Shown here piece by piece: positions 47,628-52,475 of a DNA stretch of 64,000 nucleotides. Position numbers and translations under genes: made by a program. The notes beneath the pieces were generated by a model. That model had not been told where the DNA came from. It saw only the letters and a program-made list of their open reading frames with translations, and did not search any database. Origin of the DNA: Kofleriaceae bacterium (GTDB taxonomy: Bacteria > Myxococcota_A > Polyangia > Haliangiales > Haliangiaceae); contig JAGPCY010000017.1 of assembly GCA_018057825.1 (NCBI GenBank), positions 1-64,000 on the forward strand, in the 5' to 3' direction. How positions within the stretch are numbered: position 1 is the first letter of the stretch; each line of letters opens with the position of its first letter.

Positions 47628-49193
<1,566 letters not shown>

Positions 49194-49730
49194 CTACCCG
49201 CCCGCCCTCGCGGCCCGACGCGCCGCCGCCAAGATCGGCGCCAGCGGCGGATGATCGCCGGCCTCCGACGACGCGTAGCGATACGCCAGCTCACCGTCGG
49301 TGCCGACCACCAGCACCCCGCCCTGCTGGAGCGGATCGCCCTGGGTCCGCCCCTGGCGAAACCCGCCACGCATGGCCCGCACCGCGTGGCCGACGACCGA
49401 CGGCCGCGCCACCGTGGTCAGGCCGCGCCGGAGCCGGAACGCGCGATACACCGCCAGATCCGGATCGGTGTAGAGCCGCCCGGGGTAGCCGGTGGTCTCG
49501 CGAAAGCCGGCGAGGAACATCGGCGCGCCGTTGCCGATCACCGCGAGCTCGGCGCCGGCGGCGGCGAGCTGGTCCTCGGCCCGGTGCAACTGCACCACCT
49601 GCTCGCGGCAGAACAGTCAACCGAAGTGGCGGACCAGCGCGATCACCGCCGGACGGTCGCGCCACAAGGCCGCCAGCGGCACCGGCGCGCCATCCTCGCC
49701 GAGCACGCGCAGGCCGGGATCGATCGCCAC
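49194..49730 (-). CDS. Probable selenoprotein: peroxiredoxin-like thioredoxin-fold protein (UxxC)
   Basis: Read through an in-frame TGA at 49617-49619, the gene encodes 178 aa of a SelU/AhpC-TSA-like (Prx-like) family, with Sec38 in HFG-U-LFC-REQ. A UxxC pair exactly replaces the CxxC redox motif, and conserved sequence continues on both sides (PAVIALVRHFG before, EDQLAAAGAELAVIGNG after). Without readthrough neither half makes sense: the N-terminal part is 37 codons and the C-terminal part would need an internal GTG. A SECIS-like hairpin follows the TGA. GTG 49730 has TACCGT 6 nt upstream. The enzyme would reduce peroxides or disulfides. The hexamer tract abuts its true stop. Confidence 0.82.
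49583..49596 (-). promoter_or_regulatory. Candidate bacterial SECIS hairpin
   Basis: On the minus strand GGTGCAGTTGCACC folds into a 5-bp stem with loop AGUU. The loop G is about 27 nt after the UGA, inside the usual 16-37 nt window, and is the second loop base, as in known bacterial SECIS elements. It overlaps the coding sequence, as expected. Confidence 0.7.
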
Positions 49731-49736
49731 GAGGCC

Positions 49737-49742
49737 ACGGTA
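49737..49742 (-). promoter_or_regulatory. -10-like TACCGT
   Basis: Six nt before the GTG at 49730; supports the selenoprotein start. Confidence 0.45.
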
Positions 49743-49805: not shown

Positions 49806-49811
49806 TATGCT
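49806..49811 (+). promoter_or_regulatory. -10-like TATGCT with TTGTCC -35
   Basis: Six nt before the GTG at 49818. TTGTCC at 49782-49787, 18 bp upstream, is one of the better -35 matches in the window. Confidence 0.55.
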
Positions 49812-49817
49812 GGACGG

Positions 49818-52475
49818 GTGTCCTGGGTCGTCCCCCTGAGCTTGGGCGGACTCGCCATCGCCGTGATGGCGCTGTTCACCATGCTCGGCGCGCGCAAGGC
49901 CCGGCTGGCCGCGGTCGCCCGCCCGGTCGCCGGCCCGCGGATCCTGGTCCACGACATCAACGATGATCGCTGCACCGGCTGCGACGCCTGCGTCGCGGTG
50001 TGCCCGACCAACGTCCTCGATCTGGTCGACAACAAGAGCCGGGTGCTCCGGTTCCACGACTGCATCCAGTGCGAGGCCTGCATGTGGGCCTGCCCGACCG
50101 AGGCCCTGGTGATGTTCCCCGAGGGCGCCGAGCCACCGCCGCTCAAGGTCCCCGAGCTCGACGACACCTACCAGACCGGCGTGCCCGGCCAGTACCTGAT
50201 CGGCGAGGTCGCCGGCAAGCCTCTGGTCAAGAACGCCGCCAACCTCGGGCGCGCGGTGATCGAGCAGATGCTGCGGACCGGCCTGGCGCCGGCCGGGCGC
50301 GGGCCGACCACCGTCGACGTCGCGATCATCGGCTCGGGCCCCGGCGGGCTGTCGGCGGCGCTCACCTGCATCCAGCGCGGGTTGTCCTACGTGCTCCTCG
50401 AGAAGGAGCAGCAGATCGCGTCGACGATCGCGCGCTACCCCAAGGGCAAGCTGGTCATGGCCGAGCCCTACGACACCCAGAACCTGTCGCTCCTGCCGGT
50501 GTTCGACTCGAGCAAGGAGCAGCTCGTCGCGATCTGGCGCGAGCTGATCGAGCGCACCGGCGTGCGCATCAACCTGGGCGAGGCGGTCGAGGCGGTGCAG
50601 CGCGCGGGCGACGGCTGGTTCGACGTCCGCACCACGGTCGCGGCCTACCGCGCCCAGCGCGTGGTCCTGGCCACCGGCACCCGCGGCAAGCCGCGCACGC
50701 TCCAGGTCCCGGGCGAGAACCTGCCCAAGGTCGCCAGTCTCCTCGACGATCCCGACGAGTGGCGCGGCCGGGACGTGCTGGTGGTCGGCGGCGGCGACTC
50801 CGCGGTCGAGGCCGCGGTGGCGCTGGCCGACGCCGGGGCCCGGGTGATGATCAGCTACCGCGGCAAGTCGTTCAATCGCGCCGCGCCCAAGAACCGGCAG
50901 ACCATCGAGGGCTACGCCGCGCAGCAACGGCTCAAGGCCAAGTACGGCTCCCAGGTCGTCGCCTTCGAGGCCGAGGCCGTGATCCTCCAGCTCGACGACG
51001 GCTCGCAGAAGCGCTACCCGAACCACGCCGCCTTCGTCTTGATCGGCGCCGATCCGCCGGTGACCTGGCTCGAGAAGCTCGGGGTCCGGTTCGTGCTGCG
51101 CCCGCATCAGTACTCGCTCGGCAAGACCGACGGGTTCGTGCGCCGGCTGGTGCCGAGCGCCGCGCCGTGCCCCGAGGACGCCGCCCGCGCCGCCGAGCTC
51201 ATCACCGGCCGGCCGCAGGCGCCCGTCGCGACCAGCCGCGATCGCGATCGGCTGCCGTCCGACGTCGAGCGGGCCCTGGCCACCGTCGGGCTCGACGATC
51301 CCAGCGCGGAGTCGGGCTCGACCGGGGCCAAGAAGTGGCTGCGGGCCGCCACCGGCCTGTTCACCCAGAGCGGCAAGAAGGTCGAACAGCCGATCCCGCT
51401 GTCGGAGTTCGCCAAGCGTCAGCGCTCGAGCGTCGGCAAGCGCGACGCCCTGTCGGCCGGCGAGCGGACCCGCGTGCTGCGCATGCTCCGCGACGAGGGC
51501 GGCCGCCTCGCCGACGAGGAGTCCCGGGTGTCGTTCGTCGACCTGGCGGCCCTGCGCGCGGCCGGGCCGGCGCCCGAGCCGACCCCGGCGCCGTACACCT
51601 CGGCCCCGCCGCGCCATCTCGCGCCGGGCCACCGCGCCGCGGTCGGTCCGGCGCCCGCGGCCCCCGCGCCGGCGCCCAGCCGCGCCCATCGCACCAGCCA
51701 GGCGCCGCCGGCCTCGGGCGACATCGTCGCCAAGCCAGCGGTGATCGTCGGGCTGGCCAAGGCCACCGCGGCCGGGCCGCGCACCCGATCGGGCAAGGCC
51801 GACGAGATCGAGCTCGGGCCGGGCGTGCGGATGAAGCCGGGCAAGGCCCAGCGCGCCGCCGCCGAGGCCGAGCGTCGCCCACCGGCGTCGCGACCGCCGC
51901 CGCCGTTCGTCGAGGAGCCGACCCGCCAGGTCGACCCGCCGGCCGGGCGCGCGCTCAAGCGACCGGCGCCGCGGGCCGAGTTCCGCGAGGAGCCGACCCG
52001 CGCGGTCGGCGTCGATCCGCGCCTCCTGGCCGAGAGCGCCGACGAGGCGACTCGGATGGCGTCCTTCGATCCGCGGGCGATCATGCAGCACGAGGACGCC
52101 ACCCGGCTCCACGCGGTCGACGCGCGAGCCCTCATGGCGCACGGCGAGGCGACCCGGCTCCACGCGGTCGATCCGCTGTCCTTGTTCGACGAGGAGGCCA
52201 CCCGCGCCGACGACGGGCTGTACTCCGGCGACAGCGCCACCGGCTCGATCGATCTCGGCCCGCGCGATCAGTCGCGCCGCTACGCCCGCCTGCCCGAGGA
52301 GGACGCGACCAAGCTGGGAGATCTCGGCGCGATCCTCGCGGGCGAGCGCGATCGCGCGCGGCCAGCGGCCCGACCGGCAGCCCGACCGCCGGCCTCGGTC
52401 CACGACGACGCGACCCGCGCGGTCGACCTGGGGCGGGCCAACAGCATGAGCGACGTCGACTGGGATCTCGATTGA
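49818..52475 (+). CDS. Membrane-anchored ferredoxin/thioredoxin-reductase-like flavoprotein with phosphothreonine-motif tail
   Basis: Redox protein of 885 aa. An N-terminal helix (about 4-24) is followed by two [4Fe-4S] motifs (Cys52/55/58/62 and Cys82/85/88/92), an FAD Rossmann motif GSGPGG (172-177), a central NAD(P)H motif GGGDSA (324-329), and ATGTRGKPR. This is the two-dinucleotide flavoprotein fold of thioredoxin-reductase relatives. From about residue 500 the chain is disordered and Ala/Pro-rich, and from about 695 it carries eight motifs of the form E/D-x-x-T-R/K (EEPTR, DEATR, EDATR, GEATR, DATK and DDATR among them) at regular intervals. Such motifs are typical phosphothreonine sites for FHA readers. 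The GTG has a -10-like element 6 nt upstream. Confidence 0.88.
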   Translation: MSWVVPLSLGGLAIAVMALFTMLGARKARLAAVARPVAGPRILVHDINDDRCTGCDACVAVCPTNVLDLVDNKSRVLRFHDCIQCEACMWACPTEALVMFPEGAEPPPLKVPELDDTYQTGVPGQYLIGEVAGKPLVKNAANLGRAVIEQMLRTGLAPAGRGPTTVDVAIIGSGPGGLSAALTCIQRGLSYVLLEKEQQIASTIARYPKGKLVMAEPYDTQNLSLLPVFDSSKEQLVAIWRELIERTGVRINLGEAVEAVQRAGDGWFDVRTTVAAYRAQRVVLATGTRGKPRTLQVPGENLPKVASLLDDPDEWRGRDVLVVGGGDSAVEAAVALADAGARVMISYRGKSFNRAAPKNRQTIEGYAAQQRLKAKYGSQVVAFEAEAVILQLDDGSQKRYPNHAAFVLIGADPPVTWLEKLGVRFVLRPHQYSLGKTDGFVRRLVPSAAPCPEDAARAAELITGRPQAPVATSRDRDRLPSDVERALATVGLDDPSAESGSTGAKKWLRAATGLFTQSGKKVEQPIPLSEFAKRQRSSVGKRDALSAGERTRVLRMLRDEGGRLADEESRVSFVDLAALRAAGPAPEPTPAPYTSAPPRHLAPGHRAAVGPAPAAPAPAPSRAHRTSQAPPASGDIVAKPAVIVGLAKATAAGPRTRSGKADEIELGPGVRMKPGKAQRAAAEAERRPPASRPPPPFVEEPTRQVDPPAGRALKRPAPRAEFREEPTRAVGVDPRLLAESADEATRMASFDPRAIMQHEDATRLHAVDARALMAHGEATRLHAVDPLSLFDEEATRADDGLYSGDSATGSIDLGPRDQSRRYARLPEEDATKLGDLGAILAGERDRARPAARPAARPPASVHDDATRAVDLGRANSMSDVDWDLD

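Follow-up and report, generated by a model that had tools for sequence, protein, structure and literature searches.

Does the TGA codon that lies in frame within positions 49194 to 49730 of this DNA terminate translation, or does it encode selenocysteine (Sec) in the active site of a peroxiredoxin-like enzyme? The stretch analysed, here called the window, spans 64,000 nucleotides of the genome of a Kofleriaceae bacterium. The original prediction proposed a new selenoprotein with a UxxC motif followed by a SECIS hairpin. We privilege the hypothesis that the TGA is almost certainly a Sec codon in a peroxiredoxin-like enzyme, on the grounds of the sequence comparisons presented below.

Gene organization

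On the minus strand, the frame that opens at GTG 49730 and closes at TAG 49196-49194 has the predicted TGA as its sole interruption (Table 1). Its reading as Sec gives a protein of 178 residues with the motif RHFG-U-LF-C, in which U38 and C41, the latter encoded by TGC, are the only Cys or Sec residues. The mechanical list of open reading frames treats the halves separately, the second as 49194..49598 and the first as the last part of a frame of 1005 residues that stops at 49617; such splitting or truncation is expected of standard gene callers. The alignment with the NCBIfam profile for SelL-related redox proteins (residues 7-169) covers both sides of the TGA and the two halves are therefore read as one protein. 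This agrees with the earlier proposal of a single gene with peroxiredoxin-like sequence on either side of the codon, and coding conservation is indeed found on both sides. We estimate at about 93% the probability that 49194-49730 is one gene for a peroxiredoxin-like selenoprotein, whose UGA would be decoded as Sec in a manner dependent on SelB and on the downstream hairpin. If the TGA were instead a true stop between two proteins, GTG at 49598 could open the second half, but the first half alone, of 37 residues, would be without most of the fold.

Table 1. Coordinates of the selenoprotein locus and its divergent neighbour in the window
Feature	Position	Strand	Remarks
Predicted selenoprotein gene	49194..49730	minus	178 codons + TAG; peroxiredoxin-like (AhpC-TSA_2), UxxC active site
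In-frame TGA, codon 38, putative U of UxxC	49617..49619	minus	C41 codon at 49608-49610
Predicted bSECIS hairpin	49582..49597	minus	stem 49597-49592 with 49587-49582, loop AGUU 49591-49588
TTG Leu codon within hairpin	49587..49589	minus	codon-use comparison
-10-like TACCGT	49737..49742	minus	6 nt before GTG 49730
-10-like TATGCT	49806..49811	plus	6 nt before GTG 49818 of divergent neighbour
Divergent neighbour	49818..52475	plus	two 4Fe-4S clusters + pyridine nucleotide-disulphide (YpdA/TrxR-like) flavin domain

The gap between the stop codon of the gene and a convergent gene ending at 49025, by eye a putative asparaginyl-tRNA synthetase, is filled by an array of about 20 copies of the hexamer CGGTCT and its variants (49046-49209).

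Conservation of the TGA codon

A search of 35 genomes of the order (E <= 1e-10) gave 25 loci in 22 genomes. The TGA is found exactly at the active-site position (HFG-U-xx-C) in 23 of these loci, from 21 genomes including that of the window. The two others, one in genome G017 and one a second gene (paralogue) in the window's own genome, are Cys forms and carry Cys at the codon corresponding to codon 38. The TGA stands in the place of the first Cys of a CxxC motif, and G017 has no detected Sec machinery (see below). Two partial matches without TGA that the class search gave within the order (G024 C603 and G011 C330) were left unread. The window's own genome also keeps relatives that lack the TGA, L044 (G000 C27:111729-112241), which is placed in an all-Cys clade of the class, and L047 (G000 C61:188580-189008). 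L047, a paralogue whose active-site motif was unmatched by the pattern, was left out of the hairpin counts, the scan and the tree.

A single base separates TGA from TGC or TGT and the window comes from a draft assembly (8.89 Mb in 84 contigs), features that would suit a sequencing error in an intact Cys gene or a mutation in a decaying pseudogene. Yet 20 other genomes of the order share the TGA, at 22 loci in all. The proteins of these loci are 47-73% identical to that of the window over the match, and the hairpin is kept at synonymous sites. Conservation of the TGA in these loci rules out a sequencing error, and we consider error or gene decay together to be extremely improbable.

UxxC forms extend beyond the order. 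They occur in four further loci (L054-L057) on contigs titled Proteobacteria, Deltaproteobacteria, Acidobacteria and Nitrospiraceae. In the class as a whole a match is present in 78 of 317 genomes, and 23 of the 64 matches outside the order contain TGA. Forty-one of these 64 were fetched, namely 20 of the 23 with TGA and 21 of the 41 without. The 20 TGA loci read outside the order comprise 19 UxxC forms and one UxxU form, L140 (G139 C191:29603-30085), a distant class member whose motif RULAU has the double-Sec pattern of SelL and which adjoins its UxxC sister L142 on the tree. This quick tree has 70 rows, 47 Sec and 23 Cys; in the protein alignment L055, whose frame continues further, was trimmed to 160 codons, and L056 stops at the contig end. 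On this tree 8 changes account for the Sec/Cys label, against an average of 19.5 for shuffled labels, and at least 3 of the 8 are forced by well-supported (starred) branches. The five rows nearest to the window protein are all Sec forms, and the Cys form of G017 shares a starred set with two Sec forms.

Selenocysteine machinery

The four components selA, selB, tRNA-Sec and selD, whose absence would have counted against Sec, are all present in the window's genome. SelA scores 524 bits and SelB is over its cut-off with 276 bits, the profile matching at 2-338 of 581 in a frame that runs for about 627 residues in all. The tRNA-Sec scores 75.4 bits (gathering score 47) and ARAGORN assigns it the anticodon TCA. 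SelD scores 305 bits and has an in-frame TGA that needs Sec reading in the motif GGGUAAKL; this gene (L010:248-1306, contig C18) is a second selenoprotein gene of the genome.

The 21 Sec-form genomes of the order were searched with thresholds of 1e-30 for selA, 1e-8 for tRNA-Sec and 1e-60 for selB, which were found in 20, 18 and 18 of them, respectively, the selA of G020, a fragment under the cut-off, being counted. At least one of the three is present in 21 of 21 and at least two in 20 of 21; G003, a genome 73% complete, has selB alone. None of the three was found at these thresholds in G017, which has the Cys form, nor in G022, which has no match to the window protein in the order or class search. 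Some genomes, such as G001, have Sec machinery and no match to the window protein in the order search.

The predicted SECIS hairpin

The original prediction placed a hairpin with loop AGUU downstream of the TGA. It is found with 25 nt between TGA and loop and with six pairs, five Watson-Crick and one G-U. According to PMC13188914, bacterial SECIS elements have a loop of 3-9 nt with G in its first two bases, an upper stem of 4-16 bp, a loop 16-37 nt after the UGA and a minimum free energy of at most -7.5. The window hairpin lies within all of these limits, that of energy narrowly (-7.8 kcal/mol for the hairpin alone, -9.6 for a 24-nt segment). Its 16-base core occurs once in the window at up to 2 mismatches, with 0.02 occurrences expected. 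Taken alone the hairpin is unexceptional: when this stretch is re-coded synonymously, about 6-7% of the versions match it. The comparative evidence is decisive. In Rfam the region has three matches, all under the gathering score.

In 27 aligned Sec forms a 7-bp hairpin has 95.8% of its cells paired, and four of its seven pairs have changed on both sides. Its covariation is 0.280 against 0.152 +/- 0.019 after shuffling. This value was equalled in 0 of 500 shuffles, although kinship can beat such a control. When the hairpin is displaced by 1-3 columns, the covariation is 0.117 at most. RNAalifold proposes the same hairpin unaided, with six pairs. Class members included, at least six of the seven pairs form at the common place in 35 of 47 Sec forms and in 0 of 23 Cys forms; as the aligned and class rows are related, this and all other counts overstate independence. 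The two groups also differ in folding relative to synonymous re-coding (Mann-Whitney p ~1e-6). A scan with the published rules and an unbroken stem detects a hairpin in 42 of the 47 Sec forms, where synonymous re-coding would give 6.0, whereas the 4 hits among the 23 Cys forms (2.7 expected) are hardly above chance. The minus-strand hairpin thus conforms to the bacterial rules, shows covariation and is associated with the TGA forms. Where Leu stands at the hairpin codon, it is encoded by TTG in 33 of 35 Sec forms but in 0 of 16 Cys forms; elsewhere in these Sec-form genes, TTG accounts for 56 of 781 Leu codons.

Fewer than six of the seven pairs form in 12 of the 47 Sec forms (L043, L054, L128, L130, L131, L134, L137-L140, L142 and L143). 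Eleven of the 12 have a hairpin that conforms to the rules, differs in sequence and lies 16-26 nt from the TGA; L043 fails. The five Sec forms without a hit in the scan are L043 plus L032, L034, L127 and L129 (strict energy or stem rule). Most Sec-form loops begin 25-26 nt after the TGA, with sequences such as AGUU, AGGU and GGUC. Those of L054, L128, L130 and L137 lie at 16-17 nt and those of L140, L142 and L143 at 20-21 nt, with other stem and loop sequences. The idea that these seven loci are devoid of a strong hairpin was rejected, the rule scan giving one at 16-21 nt in each. Judging by the differing distances between TGA and loop, the SECIS-like element has apparently changed its position in the course of the evolution of a single protein family.

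The association of the hairpin with the TGA forms also bears on the idea that the TGA is a true stop, is read as Trp or undergoes plain readthrough. Apart from the GTG available to the second half, these readings have to accommodate a TGA that replaces the first Cys of CxxC, with Cys in that place in a relative without detected Sec machinery, and several relatives, such as L021 and L022, in which a further TGA appears to serve as stop codon of the gene. We regard them as very unlikely and retain the assignment of the TGA to Sec.

Protein family, fold and predicted function

Up to E 1, NF040769 alone among the NCBIfam profiles matches the window protein. The match extends over residues 7-169 (6-172 of the 173 profile positions) with 115.5 bits, short of the curated cut-off, which is 120. 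This profile matches every one of the 28 members of alignment A2, including the window protein; of the relatives, L026 (127.9) and L037 (125.5) pass the cut-off, and L021 (117.1) and L022 (115.5) are under it. Pfam assigns residues 47-152 to AhpC-TSA_2 (PF13911; 69.9 bits, cut-off 27) and residues 10-112 to AhpC-TSA (29.9 bits, cut-off 26). From the NF040769/PF13911 family the window protein differs by Sec in place of the first Cys and by its NF040769 score under 120. The term "probable new selenoprotein" was accordingly correct as to the selenoprotein gene but not as to the family, which already stands in NCBIfam. The protein family is known; the window gene and its myxobacterial clade are new.

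The AlphaFold model has a mean pLDDT of 95.4 and a pTM of 0.91. Its top fold match is a mutant of human prostaglandin F (PGF) synthase (PDB 9usa; Z 21.6 over 158 residues, 27% identity) with the mutated pair Cys44/Cys47. Human prostamide/PGF synthase is also the top PDB sequence match (E 1e-14, residues 14-168). The human enzyme (PDB 9us9, 9usa) shares the fold and has CxxC in the aligned place, its first Cys standing where the window protein has Sec38. The peroxiredoxins Bcp, PrxQ and AhpE come next with Z scores of 16-19, and the thiol-disulfide oxidoreductase ResA is also among the fold matches. The UxxC motif in a predicted peroxiredoxin/thioredoxin fold suggests an enzyme that reduces peroxides or disulfides, in which Sec would attack and Cys41 would resolve.

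Rather than a general hydroperoxidase, the selenoprotein could serve as a thiol-disulfide oxidoreductase, or it could reduce endoperoxides or lipid peroxides. This assignment, which draws on prostamide/PGF synthase as the closest solved relative and on the presence of ResA among the fold matches, is to be balanced against Bcp, PrxQ and AhpE close behind in the fold ranking; we hold it to be a serious possibility, at somewhat less than even odds.

Comparison with known selenoproteins

SelL is a Prx-like selenoprotein that occurs in prokaryotes and eukaryotes (PMC2398784) and has two Sec residues two residues apart (PMC3316567). The window protein resembles it in being Prx-like with Sec in a four-residue redox motif. 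SelL has UxxU, whereas the window protein has one Sec and one Cys (UxxC) and is thus not SelL proper. Two other prokaryotic selenoproteins have been listed: a Prx-like thiol:disulfide oxidoreductase with UxxC/UxxU under PF00578 (PMC13188914), and an AhpC/TSA family protein with UxxS under pfam13911 AhpC-TSA_2 (PMC9312934). The former has the UxxC of the window protein in a different Pfam family; the latter belongs to the same Pfam family with a different motif (UxxS vs UxxC).

The literature search found no paper for "SelL-related" together with "selenoprotein", and the main text of the deep-Sep paper (PMC12013277) had no match to the terms looked up. No selenoprotein study of myxobacteria was among the matches listed, in a search whose coverage leaves out most subscription journals.

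Start codon and putative promoter

The -10-like hexamer predicted 6 nt before GTG 49730 is TACCGT, and a hexamer of this type recurs in relatives. TANNNT is found 11-14 nt before the start codon in 14 of 22 Sec-form loci of the order, and before 36 of the 2892 start-like triplets of these sequences; the naive p of this enrichment, 6e-22, ignores kinship. The 23rd Sec-form locus has no start in the expected stretch and was left out of this count. The distance from start to TGA is 41 codons in 15 of the 22 loci and 37 in the window. In the window itself 5 of 23 coding-like frames show the TANNNT pattern, against 0, 0, 0, 0 and 2 at five shifted distances. Besides 49731-49742 and 49806-49817, further window starts with TANNNT are 47541, 61784, 40063 and 9854.

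Leaderless transcripts look common in the host organism. With a -10 hexamer recurring shortly before the start codon, the mRNA of the selenoprotein gene is most likely leaderless, like those of some other genes in this DNA. No paper on a leaderless bacterial selenoprotein mRNA was recognised by its title or the start of its abstract among the matches listed.

The divergent Fe-S/flavin reductase

The divergent gene codes for a putative reductase with an N-terminal hydrophobic stretch, seen by eye, and a long C-terminal half without Pfam match. In eight relatives checked, copies of this gene have TANNNT at 12 nt in three, at 13 nt in one and none in four. The reductase gene adjoins the selenoprotein gene in 8 of 22 Sec-form relatives, from two families, and lies about 3.6 kb off in one more, the flanks of some loci in this count ending early. 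It is found in 32 of the 35 genomes of the order, including G017 and G022, and therefore cannot be specific to the selenoprotein; a role as its dedicated partner was rejected on this ground. Eight of its Cys residues belong to the two Fe-S motifs and only two others are present, with no further CxxC, so a direct disulfide relay is not evident. It is possible that the reductase acts as electron donor of the selenoprotein.

Proposed mechanism and significance

The RNA would begin at GTG 49730 or within a base or two of it, as the recurring -10 hexamer suggests for a leaderless message. The ribosome would meet the UGA at codon 38, and SelB with Sec-tRNA would bind the AGUU hairpin 25 nt downstream to insert Sec, as the conserved parts of this system indicate. 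The product is predicted to have a peroxiredoxin/thioredoxin fold with Sec38 and Cys41 as UxxC redox pair. From fold and motif, the selenolate most likely attacks a peroxide or disulfide, Cys41 would resolve the intermediate by forming a selenenyl-sulfide bond, and the enzyme could then be re-reduced by a thioredoxin or flavoprotein system. The divergent Fe-S/flavin reductase is a candidate electron donor, yet one unspecific to the selenoprotein gene.

A more extended scenario would combine an old Sec peroxidase, widely kept in the order and class, with leaderless mRNAs, in which the UGA follows the 5' end by about 40 codons, and with a SECIS element that has changed both place and sequence within the family, the peroxidase being paired in part of the lineage with a divergent membrane-anchored 4Fe-4S/flavin reductase as donor, in a reductase system undescribed before. 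As a whole we consider this scenario doubtful.

The locus adds a well-supported selenoprotein clade to the myxobacteria, and it shows that standard annotation would cut some genes in these genomes at the catalytic residue. The mixture of UxxC, UxxU and CxxC on one tree, together with the differences between hairpins, makes the family a good case for studying Sec/Cys exchange and the gain and loss of SECIS elements. With its likely leaderless start, the gene also allows Sec insertion to be tested on a message of this kind.
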